From Sulfolobales archaeon Acd1 (GTDB lineage: Archaea; Thermoproteota; Thermoprotei_A; Sulfolobales; Sulfolobaceae), in NCBI GenBank assembly GCA_000389735.1, contig APJY01000001.1, positions 62,001 through 126,000 of the forward strand: DNA of 64,000 nt. The letters run 5' to 3'. How positions within the stretch are numbered: position 1 is the first letter of the stretch; each line of letters begins with the position of its first letter. Shown here one piece after another: positions 11,619-63,436 of this stretch. Under the pieces are notes generated by a model that saw nothing but the letters and a program-made list of their open reading frames with translations, did not search any database and had not been told where the DNA came from. The position numbers were made by a program, and so were the translations under genes.

Positions 11619-12284
11619 GTGGGCGATCCTTTCGAGGAGGCACTCAGGTGGGCGGAATCCAACGGGCTCTATCCACTTATCTCCCTCTACCTCAACAAGG
11701 ATCTCGCGAAGAGGATAGCTAAGAGTGTTAGCCCTTCGGAGAACGTGAAGTTCGCGGAGTTCGCCTATTACGCTTATCCGGAGGAGGAAGTAGTCCTGAC
11801 CTTCGTCCAAGGGAACTGGGTACCGCCGAAGGCTTTCCTCAGGGAAGGGAGGCTGAGGCTGGCGTTCTTCGTGAGGCCCTACGAGGAGCTGATAAAGGCA
11901 ATAGAGGCGAAGGAGGAGGACGACGTGGTGGTTAGAGCCGTGAACGACAGGTTGAGCTTAGAGAAGAAGAGGGTCTTCTACATGGATTTCAGAGCCGTGA
12001 ACGAAATATCCCAAGGAAGCGCGTTCAAGATCCTGGGCCACACGTTGCTCTCCTCGCTGAAGATAGTGATAATCGCGAACAACGTTGTGCCAGGCAAGAA
12101 CAGGGTAAGGTTGAGCGTGAAGGGGGATGAGGTGAAGTTCGAGATTCTAGAGGGAAGACTTAAGAGGGAAGAGGTCGAGGCCGGGCTATTCCTCACCAAG
12201 TCCCAGGCGGAAACGCTGAAAAAAGACGTAAAGATCATAGACCCTAACGACGTGAGGGAGGCCATAATAACCAAATTGAGCTAG
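11619..12284 (+). CDS. Hypothetical protein
   Basis: 221 residues, GTG start. An AT-rich element (CGTTATTGCTTTC, 11588-11600) centred 27 bp upstream fits a leaderless promoter for this start. Mixed alpha/beta, soluble, no cysteine cluster and no membrane segment. The N-terminus (DPFEEALRWAESNGLYPLISLYL) is helical; a strand-rich middle contains LKIVIIANNVVPGKNRVRLSV, and the C-terminal third is charged. No family recognised. It converges with the glcE-like gene (2 bp between stops). Confidence 0.6.
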   Translation: MGDPFEEALRWAESNGLYPLISLYLNKDLAKRIAKSVSPSENVKFAEFAYYAYPEEEVVLTFVQGNWVPPKAFLREGRLRLAFFVRPYEELIKAIEAKEEDDVVVRAVNDRLSLEKKRVFYMDFRAVNEISQGSAFKILGHTLLSSLKIVIIANNVVPGKNRVRLSVKGDEVKFEILEGRLKREEVEAGLFLTKSQAETLKKDVKIIDPNDVREAIITKLS

Positions 12285-13379: not shown

Positions 13380-14792
13380 GTGAAACGTGAGGGAGGCTTG
13401 TCTCTACTCAGGGAGTTACAGGAGATAGTCGGGAAGGAGTGGGTGGTCTCGGGGGAGGCAGCCACTCTCTACTCGCACGACGCCTTCCTGCTTCATAAGG
13501 GCTCCCCCTCCCTAGTGGTCCTGCCGGGCTCCGAGGAGGAGGCCGTAAGGGTTGTGAGGCTACTTTTGAAGCGAAAGGAGAGGTTCATAGTTAGGGGGAG
13601 CGGCACGAGCCTGAGCGGTGCCTCGACCCCGTTGGACGACGAGGTAGTGGTGTCCCTTGCCAGGCTCAACAGGGTTCACTCCGTTGAGGGCTTCGAAGTG
13701 GAGGTGGGCCCAGGGATAGCCAACTTCTCGGTGAGCAAGAGCTTACCGACCCACCTGTTCTACGCCCCCGACCCCTCGAGTTACCAGGTCTCGAGCATCG
13801 GAGGGAACATCTCCCACGACTCCGGAGGGATAAGGGTAGTGAAGTACGGTCCCACTTACAACAGCGTTCTTGGCCTTAGGGTTCTGCTCTCGGACGGTAG
13901 CGTCGAGGAAATAAGGACTTCTCCCCTGCTGAATCACAAGTCCATATTCGTGGGGGCCGAGGGCACCCTGGGAGTGATACTTAGGGCCAGGCTCAGGACC
14001 TTCAGGAGGCCCGAAAACACGAAGACCCTGGCAGCCCTTTTTGAAAGCTTGGAGAAGGCGAGTAGGGCGATAGTGGAGATCTTCAACAGGGGGGTCAACC
14101 CGAGCGGGCTCGAGCTTATGGACAGGTACTCCATTAGGGCTGTGGAGAGGAGCAGGTTCAGGGCGGGGATCCCAGAGACCGAGGCTTTGCTCCTAATAGA
14201 GCTCGAGGGGATCCCGGAGGAGATAAGGAGGGACGAAGGAGTCGTCCTTCAGGTGCTCGAGGAGCTTGAAGCGGAAGTGATAGTGCCTAAGGACAAGGAA
14301 GAGGAGTCTAGACTCTGGGCAGCCAGAAGGGGAGCCTTCCCTGCCATGGCTTACATCTTCCCGGCTTACATAACCCTGGACTGTAACGTTCTCAGAAGGG
14401 ATTTATCCAAGGCCCTGCTGAAGATTAGGGAGATAGCTAGGAAGCACGGCGTTTACATAGCTAACGTCTTCCACGCGGGGGACGGCAACCTCCACCCGCT
14501 TATCCCCTTCGACCCGAATAACAGGGAGAGTATGGAGAGGGCCGTAGCAGCCGGGGTTGAGGTCGAGAAGGTCGTGATAGAGCTAGGTGGAGTCCCCTCA
14601 GGTGAGCACGGGATCGGGATAGAGAAGGTGGGCTTCATGAGACGCTACTACACTGAGGACGAGCTGAAGGTCTTCAGGAGGATAAAGGAGGCGTTCGACC
14701 CGGACTACCTGATGAACCCGTGCAAGTTGGTGCAGAGGGAAGACTGTAGACCGGCGAGCGAGGTCTTAACGAAGCTTTGGGAGGCTGACTAA
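13380..14792 (+). CDS. glcD: FAD-linked oxidase, glycolate/D-lactate dehydrogenase subunit GlcD
   Basis: 470 residues, the normal GlcD length. The GTG start overlaps an out-of-frame ATG (ATGTGA). PCMH FAD domain: FIVRGSGTSLSGASTPLDDEVVVSLARLNRV, APDPSSYQVSSIGGNISHDSGGIRVVKYG and VGAEGTLGVI. The C-terminal catalytic part has NVFHAGDGNLHPLIPFDP (conserved H-x-G-D-G-N-x-H) and VPSGEHGIGIEK, ending in FDPDYLMNPCKL. It oxidises a 2-hydroxyacid and passes electrons to the Fe-S subunit downstream. A perfect palindrome GAGTCTAGACTC sits within the gene at 14304-14315 (see the segAB cluster). Confidence 0.9.
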   Translation: MKREGGLSLLRELQEIVGKEWVVSGEAATLYSHDAFLLHKGSPSLVVLPGSEEEAVRVVRLLLKRKERFIVRGSGTSLSGASTPLDDEVVVSLARLNRVHSVEGFEVEVGPGIANFSVSKSLPTHLFYAPDPSSYQVSSIGGNISHDSGGIRVVKYGPTYNSVLGLRVLLSDGSVEEIRTSPLLNHKSIFVGAEGTLGVILRARLRTFRRPENTKTLAALFESLEKASRAIVEIFNRGVNPSGLELMDRYSIRAVERSRFRAGIPETEALLLIELEGIPEEIRRDEGVVLQVLEELEAEVIVPKDKEEESRLWAARRGAFPAMAYIFPAYITLDCNVLRRDLSKALLKIREIARKHGVYIANVFHAGDGNLHPLIPFDPNNRESMERAVAAGVEVEKVVIELGGVPSGEHGIGIEKVGFMRRYYTEDELKVFRRIKEAFDPDYLMNPCKLVQREDCRPASEVLTKLWEAD

Positions 14793-14867
14793 AGGGAGCG
14801 GACGGAACGATATCCGTATAAGCACCCCAACCTTATTATCGTTAGCCTCATAACGTGGGTAACGGCC

Positions 14868-15860
14868 TTGACGCTTGAGGAAGCTGAGAAGGAGGCGCTC
14901 AAGTGCGTCCATTGCGGCTTCTGCCTTGAGTCATGCCCCACTTACAACGTTACGAGGAACGAGCTCTTCTCGCCTAGGGGAAGAGTACTCGCGTTCAGGG
15001 AGGGGAAGAGTCTAGAGGTATTCGCCTCATGCCTCTTCTGCAGGAGGTGCGAACTCGCCTGTCCTAGCGGCGTGAACTACTCGAAGATCTACGTGGAGGC
15101 CATAAGGAGGGTAAGGAAACTCGACGTCTCAAGCGTGGTGGAGTCGCCCAAGCTTCTCTCCCTGACCCTCAGGGCTCTGAGGAGGTCTAGACCCTACCTT
15201 CCTGAGCCTAGAGAGCCCTTGACCCATAAGGATGAGAGGGCAGAGGTAGTGATATTCCCTGGTTGCGTTACCTCAGTCCTATTTAGGGGCCTGGTGGAGA
15301 AGGCCGTAAAGTACTTCAGGGCGGTCGGGATCAAGACCGAAGTAGTTAACGGCTGTTGCGGGCTCGCTCACCTCCATTCGGGGAACGAGGAGGGAGCGAG
15401 GAGGGCGGTCGAGAGACTCAGGGAGAGAGCCAAGGGCAGGCCCATAGTGGGTCTTTCCAGCAACTGCGTGGCCAGGCTAAAGGAAGAGGGGTTGGAGGCG
15501 TACGACTTCGCCGAGTTCGTCGTGAAGAGGGGCCTCCCTGTGAAGGGGAGGGCGGAGCTCGTCACGGTTCACGACTCCTGTCATGCCAGCCACTTCGGCT
15601 TGGGGAAGTACACCAGGGAGGCGCTCAGGATGCTCGGCGCCAAGGTGGTCGAGATGGAGGAGCCCAACTACGAGTGCGGGGCCGGAGGGTACTCGTTCAT
15701 CCTCAACGATGACGTCTCGGAGGCCGTTTCGGAGGTGAAGAAGAACATGATAGCCAAGACCGGGGCCGAGGCCGTGATATCGACGAACCCGGTGTGTACC
15801 CTGAACTTCCTGAGGAAAGGACTGAGGGCTTTGCACGTCCTGGATTTGATGGAGGCTTAG
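14868..15860 (+). CDS. glcF: Glycolate/D-lactate oxidase iron-sulfur subunit, GlcF-like
   Basis: 330 residues, TTG start. Two ferredoxin motifs (CVHCGFCLESCP and CLFCRRCELACP, residues about 12-70) followed by two CCG domains (PGCVTSVLFRG with NGCCGLAHLHSG, then VHDSCHASHFG with CGAGGYSF). Electron-transfer partner of GlcD, probably delivering electrons to the quinone pool. It follows glcD by 75 bp with its own AT-rich element (CCTTATTATCG, 14831-14841). The coding sequence contains TCTAGA palindromes at 15011 and 15186. Confidence 0.88.
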   Translation: MTLEEAEKEALKCVHCGFCLESCPTYNVTRNELFSPRGRVLAFREGKSLEVFASCLFCRRCELACPSGVNYSKIYVEAIRRVRKLDVSSVVESPKLLSLTLRALRRSRPYLPEPREPLTHKDERAEVVIFPGCVTSVLFRGLVEKAVKYFRAVGIKTEVVNGCCGLAHLHSGNEEGARRAVERLRERAKGRPIVGLSSNCVARLKEEGLEAYDFAEFVVKRGLPVKGRAELVTVHDSCHASHFGLGKYTREALRMLGAKVVEMEEPNYECGAGGYSFILNDDVSEAVSEVKKNMIAKTGAEAVISTNPVCTLNFLRKGLRALHVLDLMEA

Positions 15861-15871
15861 TATTACCGGGG

Positions 15872-15912
15872 AAGAGTCTTAATTTGAGGTTCTCGAGGCA
15901 AGACTCTAGACC
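15872..15912 (+). promoter_or_regulatory. segAB promoter with probable SegB operator
   Basis: An AT box CTTAATTT (15878-15885) precedes the segA GTG (15913) by about 31 bp. Between them, ending 2 bp before the start codon, is ACTCTAGACC with core TCTAGA at 15905-15910; a partial copy AGAGTCTT lies at 15874-15881, touching the AT box. From memory of the Sulfolobus segAB work, SegB binds TCTAGA-containing imperfect palindromes upstream of its own operon, so this is a likely autoregulatory and segregation site. Confidence 0.65.
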
Positions 15913-16572
15913 GTGATTATAACGGTAGTTAACCAGAAGGGAGGGGTAGGTAAGACCACGACCTCGGTCAACCTGGCCTATTTACTAGCTCAAAGGTCGA
16001 ACGTGGCGTTGATAGACCTGGATCCCGAGGGCGGGAGCACGGTTTCTTTCGGCATCAGGAGGGACAAGAAGGAGCTCAAGCTCGGTGAGAAGAGCGTCAA
16101 CATATTCAACGTCGAGTTCTTCCCCGCCCACGTGGGCTTACTGAACCTGGAGCTGAGCGGCGAGGTTGAGGCGGTTGCCCAAGGCCTAAAGGAGATCGCT
16201 AAGGGGTTCGATATCACGGTGATCGACACGCCTCCTAATTTGGGCACATTGGCCGTCGCCGCAATGATCGCCGGCGACAGGATCCTGACGCCTATTACGC
16301 CCCACCCTCTGGCGATCCAGGTTACAAAGAACTTGGGGGAGAGGTTGGCTTCCCTCGGAAAGGTCGCTCATGCGGTCACTAACATGTCCAACAAGCCCGT
16401 GAACGTGAACGTCGAAGGCATAAAGTCCCTAGAGATCGCCGTACCGCAGAGTAAGCTATTCATTGAAGCCTCTAGACTCGGGGTTCCAGCCCTCAGACTC
16501 GAGGAGTTCAAGACCAAGAGGCCAAGGCTTCAGGCAGTCTTCGAGAACATAGCCAAGGTGATTACCGGTTGA
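15913..16572 (+). CDS. segA: SegA, ParA-type chromosome segregation ATPase
   Basis: 219 residues, GTG start. ParA/MinD deviant Walker A at the N-terminus (NQKGGVGKTTTSVNLAYLLA), DLDPEGGSTVSFG as the A' region, and Walker B-like FDITVIDTPPNLGTLAVAAM. The opening and the segment LGEKSVNIFNVEFFPAHVGLLNLEL match Sulfolobus SegA as I remember it. SegA is an ATP-dependent dimer or polymer-forming motor acting with SegB. It overlaps segB by 4 bp (TTGA), as in other Sulfolobales. Confidence 0.88.
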   Translation: MIITVVNQKGGVGKTTTSVNLAYLLAQRSNVALIDLDPEGGSTVSFGIRRDKKELKLGEKSVNIFNVEFFPAHVGLLNLELSGEVEAVAQGLKEIAKGFDITVIDTPPNLGTLAVAAMIAGDRILTPITPHPLAIQVTKNLGERLASLGKVAHAVTNMSNKPVNVNVEGIKSLEIAVPQSKLFIEASRLGVPALRLEEFKTKRPRLQAVFENIAKVITG

Positions 16573-17045
16573 GCGACCTCGAGCTGCTTCTGAAGAGAAG
16601 GAAAAGGGAAGAGGCTTCGGTCAAGGCGGAAGAAGGAAGGCCGAACAAAGATGAGGGAAGGGTCCAGACCCTAGAGCACCCAACCGAGTCTAGAGTACTC
16701 GCTGAAGCCCCTAGACCGGAGAGGGTAGAGCCCAGGGAGAAGGTTCAGGAGCCTTCCAACTACGCCTCAGAGCCTAGAGTCCAGGCGGAAGACGGGGACA
16801 AGGTAATGTCGATAATGGAGAGGTTCGGCGACAGGGACCCCAAGATAGGGGTCTGGAGCTACCCAGCTTTCCTCCTGCTTCAGTACCTCTACTCGACGGT
16901 GCCCGGCTTCAGGATGAGCAGGGTGGCGAAGGAGGCGTTGGAGAGGGGGCTTAAAGAAATGTACCCTGAACTTTACTCAATAGCCGAAGAGGTCGCAAAG
17001 AAAATCTATGCGAAAAAGGGTATTATCCTATCTGAAGGTAGATGA
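16569..17045 (+). CDS. segB: SegB, DNA-binding chromosome segregation protein
   Basis: 158 residues, TTG start overlapping the segA stop. The first 90 residues are charged and proline-rich, probably disordered, as needed to contact SegA. The C-terminal part (IGVWSYPAFLLLQYLYSTVPGFRMSRVAKEALERGL) resembles the ribbon-helix-helix DNA-binding domain of SegB. It is longer than the about 109 residues I recall for S. solfataricus SegB; the extra length is in the N-terminal tail. The tail is encoded by DNA containing TCTAGA (16689) and four near-sites (CCTAGAG/CCTAGAC at 16669-16782), so sequence constraint on the DNA may shape it. Confidence 0.8.
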   Translation: MSDLELLLKRRKREEASVKAEEGRPNKDEGRVQTLEHPTESRVLAEAPRPERVEPREKVQEPSNYASEPRVQAEDGDKVMSIMERFGDRDPKIGVWSYPAFLLLQYLYSTVPGFRMSRVAKEALERGLKEMYPELYSIAEEVAKKIYAKKGIILSEGR

Positions 17046-17157
17046 CGATGATAAGCGGAGGAATCCAAGCCTGATCATCAGGTTCCTACACTCGTCTAGA
17101 TTCGCTTGACCTTTTGCTTATAGCTAAAATTTCGAGTTATCCGAAGTTCTATGAAAA

Positions 17158-18216
17158 TCAACCCTTAACTCTGATTCTGGTGCCCCTCCAGACCACCTGA
17201 TCCTCCCTCAGGGTCAGTAGCCCTACTACGAAAGCGGTAGTTGCACCCAGAGGCGAGAAGAGGGCCGGAATCACTGGCCCTTTGGCCCTCCTCGCCCTCA
17301 CGAGGTTCTTCGCTATCCAGGCTAGAACGGGTAGGGCCGTGATAGGGTAGAGAGGTGAGATCGCGAGGAGCGTTAGGATAATGCCCCAGAGGGCCATGAA
17401 GTACCTGAAGCCCCTAGGACTGTACGTCCTGACCGTGACCACCTGCCTCTCGACGAACGAAGTCAAGTCCTTCTCGTCGAACCAATTCTGGGGGATGATA
17501 GAGCAGAACTCTATGCTCATCCCCCTGGCCTTAGCGAGGGCCGTCAAGGTACAGTCGTCACACCAGGCTTTCGCGAGCGCGGACTTGACGTTGTCGGTAA
17601 AGAAGGACTTTAGGAAGGCCATCGAGCCTCCCCAAAGGAAGCGGGAGGGCCTCGAGAAGACGGACTCGAAGCCTAGAGTCCAGAACCCAGAGCGCAGGGC
17701 GTTTCCGAGCGTGAGGCTTACAGGGAACGGCCAGGGAAACGTCGTGACGACCTTGTCCTCGCTCACCAGGGACGCCAAACAAGAGAGCCAACCCTGAGGA
17801 TAAACCGTGTCGGAGTCCGCGAACACCAAGATATCTCCCTTAGCCTCCTCAACGGCGGTGAGGATGGCGGCGACTTTCCCGCTGCACTCCGAGCACGGTC
17901 TCCTGTTCATTAGAACTCTTACGGGGAACTCCCTCACTATTGGAAAGGCGGGATCCTCCGTAGAGTCTAGAACTACGATTAGCTCTTTGTTTTGGTAGTC
18001 CTGATCTATGAGGGACTTCAAGGTCTCCCTGAGCATAGGGTCCAGACCCTTTATCGGGAGTATCACGCTGACCTTCGCCACATCTTTAACCCTGCAGGGA
18101 GGCCTCGCCGTCCCCCTGGCTTCCAAGACGGTCTGCCCAGCTATAGCTAGCGAGAGTAGTACGGAGAGGGCGATCGAGAAAAGAGCTGGAAGGTCAGCGC
18201 CGGTGGTGATCATCAC
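17158..18216 (-). CDS. Membrane glycosyltransferase family 2 (HpnI/ceramide glucosyltransferase-like)
   Basis: 352 residues. N-terminal membrane anchor (LPALFSIALSVLLSLAIAGQTVL), a GT-A domain (VSVILPIKGLDPMLRETLKSLIDQDYQNKELIVVLD; metal motif FADSD, residues about 130-135), an acceptor loop with CDDCTLTALAKARG and ERQVVTVRTYSPRG in place of the usual Q-x-x-R-W, and C-terminal membrane helices. GT21-type enzymes attach a sugar to a lipid at the membrane. ATG 18216 starts within a C/D box sRNA candidate, 21 bp after the upstream nucleotidyltransferase gene, suggesting a two-gene operon for glycolipid or glycan synthesis. Confidence 0.85.
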   Translation of the reverse strand: MMITTGADLPALFSIALSVLLSLAIAGQTVLEARGTARPPCRVKDVAKVSVILPIKGLDPMLRETLKSLIDQDYQNKELIVVLDSTEDPAFPIVREFPVRVLMNRRPCSECSGKVAAILTAVEEAKGDILVFADSDTVYPQGWLSCLASLVSEDKVVTTFPWPFPVSLTLGNALRSGFWTLGFESVFSRPSRFLWGGSMAFLKSFFTDNVKSALAKAWCDDCTLTALAKARGMSIEFCSIIPQNWFDEKDLTSFVERQVVTVRTYSPRGFRYFMALWGIILTLLAISPLYPITALPVLAWIAKNLVRARRAKGPVIPALFSPLGATTAFVVGLLTLREDQVVWRGTRIRVKG

Positions 18217-18243
18217 TGGCTCAGGGGACGAACCTCATCACAA
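18192..18243 (-). ncRNA. C/D box guide sRNA, all four boxes exact
   Basis: Minus strand: C box GUGAUGA (18235-18241), 10-nt guide GGUUCGUCCC, D' box CUGA (18221-18224), 5-nt spacer, C' box UGAUGA (18210-18215), 12-nt guide UCACCACCGGCG, D box CUGA (18194-18197). All four boxes match the archaeal consensus. The RNA spans the junction between two same-strand genes: the C box includes the stop codon of the nucleotidyltransferase gene and the C' box overlaps the ATG of the glycosyltransferase gene. It could be processed from the mRNA. Targets not identified. Confidence 0.7.
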
Positions 18244-19311
18244 AATTATCTTATGCCTATCGTATACCGACTCGCTTATCTCTTTGTTGGGCAACACTAT
18301 CGTGCCCTCGTTCAGTAGGACGTTGTCGTAGACCTCGACCTCGTCACCCAATATGGAGGACTCTAGTCTCGCTCTCTTTCCCACGGTCACGTTGTCTCCC
18401 AGGATCGAGAAGTTGATCAGCGAGTACTTCCCCACTTTGACCCCGTTCATTAGAAGGGAGTCCTGGACTCTAGACCCTTCTCCAAGGTAACAACCGGCCC
18501 CAACCACGGAGTTGAAGACTTCAGAGTCTTCCCTTACTTCAGTCCGCTCGCCGATGAAGTAGGGGGGCGTCAGGCTCGCCCTCTCGCTTACCCTCGAGTT
18601 CTCGCTCACGAAACCCTTGGGGTGTTTCTCGACGAGGAGCCTGAAGTTGAGCTCCAGGTAATCCTCAGGCTTCCCTATGTCGGCCCATATCCCGCTGTAG
18701 CGGTAAACGCATATCCTCCTGTTCGTCTTTAGCAAGTGAGGGAGGAAGTTACGCGCGATGGACTGACCGTTCACCTCCTTGAGGAGCGCGGACTTGAAAA
18801 CGTAAATCCCCGTGTTTACGAGGTTCCCCGGCGGGATCTTCGGTTTCTCGAATACGTCTTTAAGGTAAATCCCGTCGGTGACTAAAACACCGAACCTTCT
18901 GGGATCCTCGACCTCCTTTCCAACTACGGTCGCATCACAACCCTCAGACTCGTGAAACTTCACGACCTCCCTAAGGTCAGTCTCGAAGTAAACGTCGCCG
19001 TTCAGGACGAGAGTGACGTCGTTGAGCTTGTAGTTCTCGAATATCAGCTTCAGGGGCCCTGCGTCCCCTAGCCTCTCCTTTTCTATGACCGTAACTACGT
19101 TCCTCCTCTCCATAGTCACGTGCGAGACTATCTTGTTGGCCATAACCCTCAGCGAGAGGAACACCCCTTTAGGCTCCAACCTTTCGACCTCGTCGAGAAT
19201 GTAGTCAAGAAGGGGTCTTCCGAGGATAGGTAGGAGAACCTTGGGCTTGGTGAGGCTCAGCGGTCTGAGCCTAGTAGCGTATCCCCCCGCGAGTATGATG
19301 ACGGAAACCAT
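18238..19311 (-). CDS. Sugar-1-phosphate nucleotidyltransferase with left-handed beta-helix tail
   Basis: 357 residues. N-terminal nucleotidyltransferase signature IILAGGYATRLRPLSLTKPKVLLPILGRPLLDYILDEV (G-G-x-x-T-R-L-x-P-L, then PK). LVLNGDVYFE carries the metal Asp. Residues about 240-357 are hexapeptide-type repeats (GAGCYLGEGSRVQDSLLMNGVKVGKYSLINFSILGDNVTVGKRARLESSILGDEVEVYDNV). Makes GDP-mannose, UDP-glucose or dTDP-sugar from NTP and sugar-1-phosphate; the specific sugar is undecided. It precedes the glycosyltransferase on the same strand, so it probably supplies an activated sugar for surface glycans. Confidence 0.88.
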   Translation of the reverse strand: MVSVIILAGGYATRLRPLSLTKPKVLLPILGRPLLDYILDEVERLEPKGVFLSLRVMANKIVSHVTMERRNVVTVIEKERLGDAGPLKLIFENYKLNDVTLVLNGDVYFETDLREVVKFHESEGCDATVVGKEVEDPRRFGVLVTDGIYLKDVFEKPKIPPGNLVNTGIYVFKSALLKEVNGQSIARNFLPHLLKTNRRICVYRYSGIWADIGKPEDYLELNFRLLVEKHPKGFVSENSRVSERASLTPPYFIGERTEVREDSEVFNSVVGAGCYLGEGSRVQDSLLMNGVKVGKYSLINFSILGDNVTVGKRARLESSILGDEVEVYDNVLLNEGTIVLPNKEISESVYDRHKIIL

Positions 19312-22369: not shown

Positions 22370-23158
22370 TCAGACCTCGATCTCCCTCCTTACCTTCCAC
22401 TCCTTCGCCTCTATCTCTCTCTGCTCCTTTATGACCTTCTCCCACAGGGCGTCGTAGTTCTCCATGAGGTAATCGTAGACTTCCTTGACCCTTTCGAGAA
22501 CGTCGGTTTCAGTGAGCCTATGGATCCTTAGGCCGACTCTGCCGACCGCCCCTCCCCTGACCTGAACCCAATGGTAGAAGACCTCCAAGGGGTAAAGGGA
22601 TTTAGCTTTCTCTATAAGTACCTTATCCCCGTAGAGCCAGTAGAGCTCCCTCACGAAGTTCGTCGCGATCACTCTCTTCATCCTGTCCTTCCACTTCTCG
22701 AACAACTCGTCCTTAGTCTTGAGCGTGTAATTCCTGAGATAATTGTATAGGTCTTCAGCGTTGGGCGATAGAGCCAGCCCCGTGACGGCATAAACGAAGT
22801 CCCTCTGCGATAGGATGGCCTCGAAGTCCTTATTCACGTATAAATATGCCGTGGCCGCGAAGGAGTTCACTATGCCCTCCATGAATTTGGCGACCAATTC
22901 GTCCTTCGATACCTCTAGGACGACGTTCTCTCCCTTGAAGAGCCTTTCCAGCTCGTCGTAGTCGACCACGCCGGCGAAGAGTAGTTTGCCGTCAACGAAC
23001 ACTGAAGGTGTGGATATCACACCCCTCTCGAAGGCTAAGAACGGATAGAGTTCGGTGTCTATGAGCTTCACCTTATGAAGGTAGCCCTTCTCCTCGAGCC
23101 ACTCTATCAGCATGTTACACTCAACGCAGTTCCTGTGAGTGAAAATCTCCACCCTCAC
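22370..23158 (-). CDS. Glutaredoxin/thioredoxin-domain protein with alpha-helical C-terminal domain
   Basis: 262 residues. N-terminal thioredoxin fold of about 75 residues with redox pair C11-x-x-C14 (THRNCVECNMLIEWLEEKG), the cis-proline loop VISTPSVFVDG, and LLFAGVVDYDELERLF. The remaining 180 residues are helical and unrecognised (VNSFAATAYLYVNKDFEAILSQRDFVYAVTGLAL). It overlaps the upstream xpd gene by 4 bp (ATGA), so the two are cotranslated. A role in protecting the XPD iron-sulfur cluster thiols would be speculation. Confidence 0.75.
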   Translation of the reverse strand: MRVEIFTHRNCVECNMLIEWLEEKGYLHKVKLIDTELYPFLAFERGVISTPSVFVDGKLLFAGVVDYDELERLFKGENVVLEVSKDELVAKFMEGIVNSFAATAYLYVNKDFEAILSQRDFVYAVTGLALSPNAEDLYNYLRNYTLKTKDELFEKWKDRMKRVIATNFVRELYWLYGDKVLIEKAKSLYPLEVFYHWVQVRGGAVGRVGLRIHRLTETDVLERVKEVYDYLMENYDALWEKVIKEQREIEAKEWKVRREIEV

Positions 23159-24774
23159 AGCCTAACCCTGCGAGGGTTGAGGCAATTAAGGCTTTTCCTC
23201 CACCATATTTCCTCAAACCTCCTGTCAAGAAGCCAGAGGTTCGCCCTGTCTTCGGGTCCCCTGATGGCCCTCCCCACTGCCTGCCTTACCGCAATCCAGG
23301 CGTTGATCCTCAGGAAGTCGTGAAGGGGAATTCCTGCCCTGTTCGAGAAGTCTTCAGTCAGATCGTCCACTGGGGGGTAGGGAATGCCGACTACGGCTAC
23401 GTCGCTTATCCTGCTCCTCCCCTCCTCATCGACTAGCTCGATCCCCTCGGTGAGTTTCCCTCTGGAGACCGCGCATATGAGTGTCCTCTCGTTCAGCTTC
23501 GCTAGACTCTCCACCGGAGACTCTTCCGACTCCACGTACGTCGGGATCTTTAGCTTAGACGTTATTGCGTTCATGTATTCGTAGCTTGGGAAAACCGCCA
23601 ACACGTGGGACTTCGCCGAGTAGTAGATCTTGAGCAAGTAGCTCGCGTACTTGCTCGCCATTGTCTCCCTTAGCTCGTATTTGGAAGTGACGTCGATCGC
23701 TAGGTAGCAATCGAAGGCCTCATAGCTCCTGAGCCTAACGTGCTTCTCGGCGTTGAGCTCGACCACGTCCTTACCCCCGAAATCCAGGACTTTCGTTAGG
23801 TAGTTCTTAGGCGGTAACGTTCCGGACATGAGCAGCAGTCCTCCAGCCTTCTCAACTATCTCCCTGAACTCGGACAGGGGAGCGAAGGACCTGGCTATCA
23901 GCTTGCCCTCGGCGGAGTAAATCACGTAGTCCGGCGACCTTGTGGCCACCAGGAATTTAACTACGGAGCCTAAGTGTAACCTTCTGATTCTCCTCTCCTT
24001 GATCATTTTCTCCCTAAGATCCTCCAGCTCGTCGGCCAGTACCTGGAGTTCGTCCTGCGATACGAGCGGAACGTTCATCACCCTGACGTACTTCTCCCCC
24101 TGGTTGATCAGCCCCTGCGAGCTCTTCCTTATCGACTCTAGGATACTCCTTGCCTCCTGCGATGATACCTCCCTCAGGGCACCCTCCAGGCTCCTTTGGG
24201 ACAGGACCCTCTCCGTAAGGTCGGCCGCCCGATCAAGGTTGTGAGCCTCATCTATAACCACCAGGCTTTCCTCTAGCGGGACGTCAATCGACGCCCTGTA
24301 CCACGGGACGAGGAGGTAAGGGTAGGTTATCGACACGACCTCGGCCTTGCTAAGGCTGTCCTGCAGGGTATAGTAAGGACAGAAACCTTCGTTTCCTCCC
24401 CTCTCCTTGAGCTGAGCCAAGAACTCGGCCGGAGGTAACTGAGCTTCTATCTCTACGCTTCTCCTGAAGGGGCAGAGGCCGCACTTTATGTCCTCCGAGT
24501 CCACGTCCTTGGAGGCGAAAAGACAGGCGTTAGGCTTACCAACGAGGAAGGAGAACCTCTTTCCCAACCTCTTCGCTTCCCTGTAGTAAGGGAAGAACTC
24601 GTTGTGGGTTTTCACCGCCGCTATTACCCTATCGAAGAGTTCGAATCCGACCAAAAGGGAAAAGAGCGTCTTACCGCTTCCTGTGGGTGCGTTAAGCAAT
24701 ACGACCTTTTTTGACCCGAGGGCCTCTACGACCTTACCCTTCAGTTTCTCCTGCCAATCCCTGAGCTTAAGCAA
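23155..24774 (-). CDS. xpd: XPD/Rad3-type DNA helicase with iron-sulfur cluster
   Basis: 539 residues, close to the crenarchaeal XPD length. Superfamily 2B, 5'-3' helicase. Walker A NAPTGSGKT (28-36), DEAH box VVIDEAHNLD (173-181), and the four cluster cysteines C84, C98, C101 and C132 (PNACLF, IKCGLCPF, GFCPYY) all present. C-terminal helicase motifs GTLPPKNYLT, AVFPSYEYMN and WIAVRQAVGRAIRGPED (motif VI). Opening MLKLRDWQEKLK matches Sulfolobus XPD. Probable role in repair or transcription-coupled processes. First base follows the small upstream gene by 2 bp. Confidence 0.95.
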   Translation of the reverse strand: MLKLRDWQEKLKGKVVEALGSKKVVLLNAPTGSGKTLFSLLVGFELFDRVIAAVKTHNEFFPYYREAKRLGKRFSFLVGKPNACLFASKDVDSEDIKCGLCPFRRSVEIEAQLPPAEFLAQLKERGGNEGFCPYYTLQDSLSKAEVVSITYPYLLVPWYRASIDVPLEESLVVIDEAHNLDRAADLTERVLSQRSLEGALREVSSQEARSILESIRKSSQGLINQGEKYVRVMNVPLVSQDELQVLADELEDLREKMIKERRIRRLHLGSVVKFLVATRSPDYVIYSAEGKLIARSFAPLSEFREIVEKAGGLLLMSGTLPPKNYLTKVLDFGGKDVVELNAEKHVRLRSYEAFDCYLAIDVTSKYELRETMASKYASYLLKIYYSAKSHVLAVFPSYEYMNAITSKLKIPTYVESEESPVESLAKLNERTLICAVSRGKLTEGIELVDEEGRSRISDVAVVGIPYPPVDDLTEDFSNRAGIPLHDFLRINAWIAVRQAVGRAIRGPEDRANLWLLDRRFEEIWWRKSLNCLNPRRVRL

Positions 24775-25552: not shown

Positions 25553-26179
25553 TCAGCGTAGCCCTAGACAGGACAAGATCTCCCTGGCCCTCTTGTAGCT
25601 CATCTGCCCTGGAGCTGTCTCTAAGCCCTCATCGAGGCTCGCGTAAATCAGCTCCGAGCCCAGTACGGCGAAGGCTATCCTTTCAATCGGGTCCGATCCC
25701 ATGGGCATGACGGCGAAACCCTTCCTGGCGAAGCGGGCCAGAAGCTCCTTGTAGCCTTCCCTCGCGGTCACCGCCAGTTTCCTGACCCAGGCTCCCTCGA
25801 AGCCCTTGAAGATCTCATCCACTTCCTTTACGCTAGGAACTCTGTCGAAGAAGTGGGCAGACACTATTTTCCCTTCAAACGGGACGTCTTTTCTCCTCCT
25901 CAAGAACTTGGCCTCTACGTCATAAAGCACCCCTCTGTCGTGAAGCTTCTTGTAAAGTGAGGCCTTCCACTCTTCATCTACCCCCTTGACTCCTCCCTCG
26001 CTGGGATCTCTTACGGTTACGATAACTCTGTCCTTGACCCCCTCGATCAGGGATGGGTCGAAGTCCTCCGGCCTCTCCAGGTAGTCCAGCCTGAGCTCCA
26101 CCAGGTCAGAGTCTAGAGTGGGGACTAACTTGATGTCTTCCAGACTCCTCACCGGCAGGGCAACGACCAGCTTCACCAA
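25553..26179 (-). CDS. aroD: 3-dehydroquinate dehydratase, type I
   Basis: 208 residues, TTG (26179) or GTG (26176) start. Type I Schiff-base enzyme converting 3-dehydroquinate to 3-dehydroshikimate. Visible: DLVELRLDYLERPEDFDP (substrate-binding E-x-R-x-D), VIVTVRDPSEGG, KIVSAHFFDRVPSVKE (catalytic His region is modified), VRKLAVTA with the Schiff-base Lys, and PMGSDPIERIA. Last gene of the aromatic cluster, 57 bp after aroA, with an AT-rich stretch (CCTATTATTC, minus strand) in the gap that could be a secondary promoter. Confidence 0.92.
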   Translation of the reverse strand: MVKLVVALPVRSLEDIKLVPTLDSDLVELRLDYLERPEDFDPSLIEGVKDRVIVTVRDPSEGGVKGVDEEWKASLYKKLHDRGVLYDVEAKFLRRRKDVPFEGKIVSAHFFDRVPSVKEVDEIFKGFEGAWVRKLAVTAREGYKELLARFARKGFAVMPMGSDPIERIAFAVLGSELIYASLDEGLETAPGQMSYKRAREILSCLGLR

Positions 26180-41035: not shown

Positions 41036-41042
41036 GCTGTAG

Positions 41043-41131
41043 CGGACCCGGGGGGATTCGAACCCCCGACCACCGGCTTTCCACCGGCCCGTTAGAAGGC
41101 CGGCGCTCTGTCCTGGCTGAGCTACGGGTCC
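41043..41131 (-). tRNA. tRNA-Arg (anticodon TCT) with 14-nt intron
   Basis: Minus strand GGACCCG...CGGGTCC acceptor pair with discriminator G, D arm GCTC...GAGC, anticodon stem CCGGC/GCCGG, anticodon loop CTTCTA|A, T arm GGGGG-TTCGAAT-CCCCC. A surplus of 14 nt (ACGGGCCGGTGGAA) after position 37 is a canonical-site intron; it can pair CCGGCC/GGCCGG as the bulge-helix-bulge element cut by the splicing endonuclease. Mature length 75 nt; CCA is not encoded. TATA-like TTATAAG is at about 41153-41159 (minus strand), 24-28 bp upstream. Confidence 0.92.
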
Positions 41132-62896: not shown

Positions 62897-63328
62897 TTAT
62901 TCACTTATCGAATCCTTAACGCAACCCGCTAGGCCTTCTACTATCCTATTCACCACGGGGCTTAGAACCCTAGAAGCCAGTGAGGCCAGCACGCCCGAAA
63001 TCTTAACGTCGGCTTCGTAGTGAAGCCTAGATCCAAGTACCTTGAGGTTAGCGTTCAGCTCGACCTGGCTGTTCAACCCTTTACCCTTCGCGTTGAAGGC
63101 TAACTCTTTGGAGGCGTGATCTACCTTCGTGAATACTACATCCGCCACGTAGTCGCCCTTTACCAGTCCCACCGCTATTTGTCCCATCACTCGGTAAGAG
63201 TTGTCTCCCACCTTTTCGATACTCTTAAGCCCGGGAAAGCACTTCGCCACTTTCTCTACATCGGAAATGAAGGACCAGACCTCATCGTCCTTCAGAGGTG
63301 AAAGATCGGCTACACCGTTGACTTTCAA
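62897..63328 (-). CDS. CoxG-like SRPBCC-domain protein
   Basis: 143 residues. START/SRPBCC fold of the carbon-monoxide-dehydrogenase subunit G family: VNGVADLSPLKDDEVWSFISDVEKVAKCFPGLKSIEKVGDNSYRV, VGLVKGDYVADVVFTKVDHASKELAFNAKGKG, and SRLHYEADVKISGVLASLASRVLSPVVNRIVEGL. Associated elsewhere with molybdenum hydroxylases; no coxLMS genes are in the window, so it is an orphan here. Upstream TATA-like TTAATATAG at about 63359-63367 (minus). Confidence 0.85.
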   Translation of the reverse strand: MKVNGVADLSPLKDDEVWSFISDVEKVAKCFPGLKSIEKVGDNSYRVMGQIAVGLVKGDYVADVVFTKVDHASKELAFNAKGKGLNSQVELNANLKVLGSRLHYEADVKISGVLASLASRVLSPVVNRIVEGLAGCVKDSISE

Positions 63329-63436
63329 CTTCTCTCTGGATACGTCGTCCTATCAAGACTATATTAAGCCGCCTCAACCCCCACGTCCTCAGAGCGTTTT
63401 TATTACACTCGACTCGAGACTCTAAACGACTGCGGG

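Follow-up and report, generated by a model that had tools for sequence, protein, structure and literature searches.

What does a crowd of TCTAGA palindromes around the genes segA and segB do, and are these palindromes the true unit of the site? We considered this in a 64-kb stretch of DNA (hereafter the window) from an archaeon that forms a lone genus within Sulfolobaceae. In Saccharolobus solfataricus and Sulfolobus acidocaldarius a SegB motif and an intragenic cluster at segAB have been published; ChIP-seq placed SegB on TCTAGA-S-TCTAGA, mostly inside genes (~83% of sites) and clustered around segAB (PMC12284271). A site cluster at segAB is, as such, already known in relatives. We favor, with moderate confidence, the reading that a SegAB chromosome-segregation system loads its SegB in this region, with SegB sitting on runs of 7-bp heptads.

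A TCTAGA cluster around segAB

The segA gene (15913-16572, forward strand; GTG start codon at 15913) encodes a 219-aa ParA-type Walker ATPase (Pfam AAA_31, 1.4e-27; CbiA, 1.2e-15) with a KGGVGKT motif. It overlaps by 4 bp (16569-16572) the adjacent segB gene (16569-17045, forward strand), whose 158-aa product is a ribbon-helix-helix (RHH) DNA-binding protein matching SegB of PDB 7duv over residues 52-147 (E = 4.8e-30) and, as a second match, SegB of 7dv2 (E = 6e-29). The ATPase, the RHH protein, the gene overlap and clustered TCTAGA-S-TCTAGA-type sites were all found, and together these sequence features point to membership in the SegAB system. Sites are also carried by a glcD-like FAD-linked oxidase gene (13380-14792; FAD-oxidase_C, 6e-62) and a glcF-like Fe-S protein gene (14868-15860; CCG, 3.5e-17), both on the forward strand, and, on the reverse strand, by genes for a family-2 glycosyltransferase (17158-18216; Glycos_transf_2, 1.9e-18) and a sugar nucleotidyltransferase (18238-19311; NTP_transferase, 8e-34). 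The three Cdc6 genes found lie at C1:224636 and on C2, none of them in the window, and thus lend no support to a replication origin inside it. A sigma-70-type promoter scan was set aside as uninformative, the host being an archaeon.

Nine of the window's 17 TCTAGA copies start between 14307 and 18474 (at 14307, 15011, 15186, 15905, 16471, 16689, 17095, 17966 and 18469) and eight lie elsewhere, just as the initial annotation had counted. The total is below the mean of 27 in dinucleotide shuffles and, therefore, the local cluster is not compositional. The genome-wide comparison that the annotation had proposed also went in its favor: thirteen 20-kb control stretches of the host genome (260 kb; 324 kb in all with the window) held at most four TCTAGA per 4.2 kb, making the clustering at segAB unique in this sample, and 11 of the 70 copies of the extended form GASTCTAG in the 1.5-Mb genome fall in the 4.2 kb of C1:76304-80473 (window 14304-18473). 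A free EM motif search of the region strayed into codon periodicity; k-mer enrichment, used in its place, put GTCTAGA first among the 7-mers of the cluster (11 observed, 0.29 expected). The published 13-mer TCTAGASTCTAGA, allowing up to two mismatches, occurs 20 times genome-wide, seven of them in 6.3 kb (C1:74139-80474); the matches here carry two mismatches each and there are no perfect copies.

Could codon choice produce such a pattern? When the codons of the six genes were shuffled synonymously, TCTAGA occurred on average 0.76 times (maximum 5 in 500 shuffles) versus 7 observed, GASTCTAG 0.83 versus 10 and GTCTAGA 0.53 versus 9. Coding constraint is excluded as the cause, as had been proposed, and the proposal's placement of sites within genes in different frames needs correction: coding copies use two of the three frames (0 and 2), and the copy at 17095 is intergenic. 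A SegB scan of genome contigs gave one relative, relatives then being taken from whole-genome searches; clustering of TCTAGA-type sites around segAB is present in 28 genomes, which bears out the expectation of a conserved neighborhood. That the cluster reflects chance, base composition or codon usage can be dismissed for practical purposes, as no point in its favor was found and the dinucleotide shuffles, own-genome controls, synonymous shuffles and conservation in relatives already refute it. The cluster is real and agrees with the published binding-site cluster in related species.

Seven-base phase of the sites

Across ten genera the sites belong to an array in which S-TCTAGA units recur in 7-bp phase, with lags of 7, 14 and 21. 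Lags 7 and 14 were raised in all ten, and around 186 non-redundant cores the phase can be followed out to +26 bp; it is absent around control cores from the own genome, and the alternative periods of 6 and 8-13 are near background. The basic unit is thus better described as 7-bp heptad runs (S-TCTAGA) than as isolated TCTAGA palindromes. This phasing, like the array in the segB linker described below, goes beyond the published descriptions of SegB consulted and looks new.

Heptad runs could be scored against the 260 kb of control sequence, where the best run reached 17.7. Six units (15870-15911; score 21.3) cover the segA promoter region, the last being TCTAGAC at 15905-15911, just ahead of the GTG; the site that the initial annotation had put at the segA start in fact ends two bases before it. 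A second run lies in the 3' part of segA (16457-16554, strongest units 16464-16505; score 17.9, synonymous-shuffle P=0.003), where relatives use identical codons for EASRLGVPALR. Upstream, glcD holds a run with GAGTCTAGACTC (14279-14320; 14.5), and glcF holds the SegB-type site AGAGTCTAGA (15007-15016) and four units starting GGTCTAGACC (15186-15213; 16.7). Downstream, the copy between segB and the glycosyltransferase gene (17095-17100) lacks an extended match, and the glycosyltransferase gene carries three heptads, CCTAGAG TCCAGAA CCCAGAG (17672-17692; 13.0, also a profile hit), and the SegB-type site TAGAGTCTAGA (17961-17971). Another such site, CCTGGACTCTAGAC, is in the nucleotidyltransferase gene (18462-18475; 10.7); these last two sites are 13-mers with two mismatches. 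An outlying run of five heptads (12139-12173; 18.8) in the ORF at 11619-12284, upstream of the interval first described, is the best profile hit with filters off. Tandem Repeats Finder reported no heptad arrays in the region, the units being too degenerate.

The published 13-bp palindromes may be all that matters, in which case the heptad echo would stem from 13-mers that overlap or have decayed, and the segB linker would be an ordinary fast-evolving, low-complexity segment, GA-rich by chance. The literature does describe discrete 13-bp sites and narrow peaks, and Glu, Arg and Ser codons in the linker yield AGA/GAG-rich DNA. We nevertheless consider this explanation distinctly unlikely in that the echo reaches twice the motif length and is confined to lags 7, 14 and 21, and that runs exceed synonymous shuffles in segA and in the linkers of several genera but not in the RHH-coding part.

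In the SegB-loading model that we favor, neighboring RHH dimers would bind adjacent palindromic 7-bp units, two of which make up the published 13-bp TCTAGA-S-TCTAGA. Exact TCTAGA units would nucleate SegB and weaker in-phase units would extend binding over ~20-100 bp. A published wider footprint with extra sites and a published lateral widening of AFM foci are consistent with arrays; published SegB peaks without long-range spreading (PMC12284271) argue against them. So does the fact that weak heptads agree at just 3-5 of 7 bases, and SegB may fail to bind them.

The run over the segA start would probably autoregulate the operon, and TCTAGA directly before this start recurs in most relatives. 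Both observations suit the notion that the sites mainly control segAB transcription rather than DNA segregation. We regard this as quite improbable given that runs also lie inside segA, segB, glcD, glcF and the downstream genes, that the authors describing the mostly intragenic published sites favor chromosome organisation, and that published segB and segAB deletions cause segregation defects. Under the loading model, the runs inside segA, segB and neighboring genes would jointly form a multi-site complex that is the target of SegA and may serve segregation in this organism. A multi-site complex rather than a single operator had been anticipated, and the extent of the region does show many sites. 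The further label of an archaeal centromere-like region holds as far as a SegB-type cluster goes; its centromere-like part is unproven, as published SegB peaks are narrow, chromosome-wide and linked to chromosome organisation and segregation (PMC12284271).

The linker-coding part of segB

Fifteen heptads in one phase occupy the linker-coding part of segB (16689-16793). This run, scoring 32.7, is the strongest in the 324 kb of host genome (synonymous-shuffle P=0.007, codon-order P=0.003). A second, weaker run (16579-16676; 16.4), out of phase with the first, ends in TCCAGACCCTAGAG and includes a 13-mer with two mismatches at 16663. The initial annotation had not singled out segB, where the densest run lies. 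A profile trained on the non-linker sites of other genera ranks the linker run first; since its E-values are individually weak (0.09-5), with some equally good hits outside the cluster, the argument rests on the location of the hits.

The linker array recurs in long-linker genera and not in short-linker genera; it is missing from genera g5, g7 and g8, which counts against the array model. Among the genera compared it never occurs in the DNA-binding-domain part of segB: genus-combined P values were 4e-4 (synonymous) and 3e-7 (codon order) for the linker versus 0.84 and 0.68 for the RHH-coding part. The linker was predicted to be unstructured in a single-sequence fold of SegB (mean pLDDT 66), used for linker disorder only.

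With the linker DNA as the longest run, segB would hold part of its own binding region, and in several genera such double duty has probably both extended the linker and molded its sequence. The full version of this idea, which we hold tentatively, is that the linker is dual-coding, its DNA a SegB-bound heptad array, and that array selection and tandem growth, not protein function, made the long repetitive linkers of several genera, so that a partition protein was shaped by its own binding site. It is also conceivable, though unlikely, that repeats and long linkers were selected as protein (a beta-helix or a SegA-stimulating tail), the 7-bp period being a slippage by-product of a short seed repeat. 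A beta-helix has been predicted with AlphaFold 2 for the 14-aa repeats, which were ascribed to duplication (PMC12284271), and identical 36- and 42-bp copies in segB genes indicate that slippage does happen. However, (i) a protein period cannot give rise to lags 7 and 14, which do not fall in codon phase; (ii) linkers free of tandem repeats (this window and genomes G072, G042 and G032) keep the phase above synonymous shuffles; and (iii) the linker unit agrees with the motif found outside the linker. In genus g3, apparently Metallosphaera, the 42-bp SegB repeats equal six 7-bp units with an internal 7-bp period off codon lags. The 36-bp repeats of G117 break the heptad phase (36 = 5x7+1), are not significant versus synonymous shuffles and support site multiplication, not continuous arrays.

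Comparison with known partition systems

What archaeal centromeres consist of has been named among the outstanding questions (PMC5120986). Footprinting later revealed sites that had escaped searches with the 13-bp motif (PMC12284271), and for this reason a heptad-array rule, if true, would better predict SegB sites. Heptad arrays would also account for the lateral growth of SegB complexes, connect archaeal SegB with a bacterial RHH partition protein that follows a heptad logic, and recast SegB repeats as DNA rather than protein elements; the gene for a DNA-binding protein may double as one of its docking sites.

The closest precedent is SegAB of S. solfataricus and S. acidocaldarius (PMC12284271), which shares the overlapping segA-segB operon, the SegB RHH domain, the TCTAGA-S-TCTAGA motif, the mostly intragenic sites at segAB and a site immediately ahead of the segA start. 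The present locus differs in its 7-bp-phased runs, known here from sequence, as opposed to 13-bp sites, in having its longest run inside segB and in its host genus, apparently absent from that paper's list. AspA-ParBA, encoded on an archaeal plasmid from Sulfolobus (PMC5120986), is likewise an archaeal partition system in which the DNA-binding protein first settles on a palindrome close to the gene encoding it and spreads from there, but it has three proteins and a 23-bp palindrome, and AspA is a different protein. There is precedent for contiguous 7-bp repeats bound by an RHH ParB in omega/parS of pSM19035, where repeats also overlap par gene promoters (PMC9499535). That system belongs to a bacterial plasmid, and its unit, WATCACW, is non-palindromic, near-perfect and intergenic (PMC9499535), whereas S-TCTAGA is palindromic and its units here are degenerate. 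In omega-type heptad parS, one RHH dimer occupies each 7-bp unit and at least four units are needed for ATPase activation; by analogy, the segAB arrays may work like omega heptad parS without being a member of that family.

SegB-type sites around segAB

Pfam and PDB comparisons identified segA at 15913-16572, segB at 16569-17045 (PDB SegB match, E 4.8e-30) and, as their flanks, glcD/glcF-like genes, a family-2 glycosyltransferase and a nucleotidyltransferase. SegB is present in 30 of the 31 genomes of the family, taken as the Sulfolobaceae on the strength of the SegB match and of the gene neighbourhood given in PMC12284271; among them the host genome is the sole member of its genus. The initial annotation had noticed nine TCTAGA in about 4.2 kb here and about eight in the remaining window, and had held that coding constraint was not the cause. 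We counted nine within 14307-18474 and eight elsewhere, and synonymous-codon shuffling within six genes left a mean of 0.76 TCTAGA against the seven observed. A total of 260 kb of control stretches from the same genome never held more than four TCTAGA per 4.2 kb, and 11 of the 70 GASTCTAG in the 1.5-Mb assembly fall within the cluster's 4.2 kb. The cluster is genuine and is unexplained by coding constraint. One 20-kb control (G000:C1:700001-720000) holds 12 TCTAGA against 0-5 in the others, at no more than four per 4.2 kb.

In S. solfataricus and S. acidocaldarius, SegB has been studied by ChIP-seq, EMSA, footprints and AFM; its motif is TCTAGA-S-TCTAGA, about 83% of its sites are intragenic with their strongest cluster at segAB, and its peaks are narrow (PMC12284271). 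Since such a cluster has been published for relatives, the initial annotation's idea of a SegB-type cluster at segAB was right in outline and, in those relatives, already known (PMC12284271). With up to two mismatches the published 13-mer has 20 matches in the host genome, and a 6.3-kb stretch surrounding segAB accounts for seven of these. Matching sites occur around segAB at all 28 loci examined.

A 7-bp unit

When 186 non-redundant TCTAGA cores from the surroundings of segAB, excluding the linkers, were aligned, agreement with the heptad S-TCTAGA extended well beyond the published motif, with z of 2-11 at most positions to +26 bp (somewhat generous, because both strands of each core were counted) and nothing consistent from +27 bp onward. 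The heptad echo recurs at lags 7, 14 and 21, and lags 7 and 14 exceed the other-lag mean in 10 of 10 genera; the 40 control cores taken from the host's own genome show none. When the spacer length was allowed to vary, period 7 was best in 22 of 26 segA genes, 19 of 26 upstream regions and 1 of 26 RHH-coding regions (RHH, the ribbon-helix-helix DNA-binding domain). The lag analysis is weight-free; the weights for heptad runs were set by hand, at 0.55 per matching base. Summaries are at genus level, because genomes within one genus are not independent.

Runs lie at 12139-12173, 14279-14320, 15186-15213, 15870-15911 (ending at the start of segA), 16457-16554 (segA end), 16689-16793 (segB linker) and 17672-17692. 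A TCTAGA directly 5' of the segA start is common to most relatives, and two segA runs recur at homologous codons in many genera (NLDSRLQSL and EASRLGVPALR; relatives' segA nt 412-453 and 523-588). Because the runs share these codons across genera, constraint at the DNA level may have helped to shape both parts of SegA as well. Two outlying runs, 23501-23535 and 26105-26125, lie one in the XPD-type helicase gene (23155-24774) and one in or near the 3-dehydroquinase gene; the density of SegB-type sites may fall away over about 10 kb downstream of segAB. Far from segAB, a low-grade 17-unit run (63309-63427, score 15.9) includes TCGAGACTCTAAA, the SegB 13-mer with two mismatches, and is a possible distant SegB site. 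Elsewhere in the window, ARAGORN called 41042-41131 (minus strand) as tRNA-Pyl (CTA); its loop CTTCTAA and the following insert better resemble a tRNA-Arg (TCT) with an intron, and Rfam confirmed a tRNA and nothing finer.

We did not find SegB sites described as heptads in the literature searched, although a 7-bp dimer spacing may stand in the SegB-DNA structure paper, which lay outside that search; the 'SegB' co-mentioned in PMC4498918 is a different one. Judged from sequence, the cluster is of a type already known, here in a genus new for it, and has a 7-bp array architecture for which that search gave no earlier description.

The segB linker

The top heptad run in 324 kb of the host genome lies in the part of segB that encodes the linker (15 units, score 32.7; best control run 17.7; P=0.007 against synonymous and P=0.003 against codon-order shuffles). 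A 34-position profile, trained on non-linker sites from other genera that were picked using the heptad model, gave a single match at E<10 in the 1.5-Mb genome, and it lies in this linker. Under default filters all four of its matches in the 324 kb lay there; with filters off, in the window only, other heptad runs and some outlying places also matched.

Compared by genus, linker runs score above synonymous shuffles in g1, g2, g3 (apparently Metallosphaera) and g4, and above codon-order shuffles additionally in g6, g58 and g60. Genera g5 and g7, whose linkers are short, have no such runs, nor does g8. Run strength correlates with linker length (rho 0.84). With genera combined, P is 4e-4 (synonymous) and 3e-7 (codon-order) for the linker, and 0.84 and 0.68 for the RHH-coding part. 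The linker is predicted, at low confidence, to be without secondary structure and is therefore likely free to vary; it probably serves a dual use.

Metallosphaera SegB carries 14-aa repeats interpreted as a beta-helix (PMC12284271), and such repeats are present in g3. Tandem repeats inflate g3 run scores, and the better evidence there is internal autocorrelation: the 42-bp units of four g3 genomes give 0.60-0.64 at lag 7, 0.57-0.69 at lag 14 and 0.26-0.29 at codon lag 3; in a fifth (G022) the lag-7 excess was not significant. In one further genus, the segB linker of genome G117 (locus L036) is a perfect minisatellite of 13 tandem 36-bp units, each holding the SegB-type site TCTAGAGTCCACA and encoding GLESTLKREEEK.

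Putative SegB loading and known parallels

A plausible scenario is that SegB RHH dimers would occupy adjacent heptads, with exact TCTAGA units anchoring the complex and weaker in-phase units extending it. This model fits the wide S. acidocaldarius footprint with its extra sites and the widening of SegB AFM foci (both PMC12284271). The promoter-overlapping run suggests segAB autoregulation, and the runs in coding regions, that of segB included, would turn segAB into the main SegB-loading region. The closest functional parallel is omega/parS of pSM19035, in which one RHH dimer binds each 7-bp repeat and activation of the ParA ATPase needs at least four contiguous repeats (PMC9499535); its repeat differs in sequence from the SegB heptad, and the parallel is drawn as an analogy.
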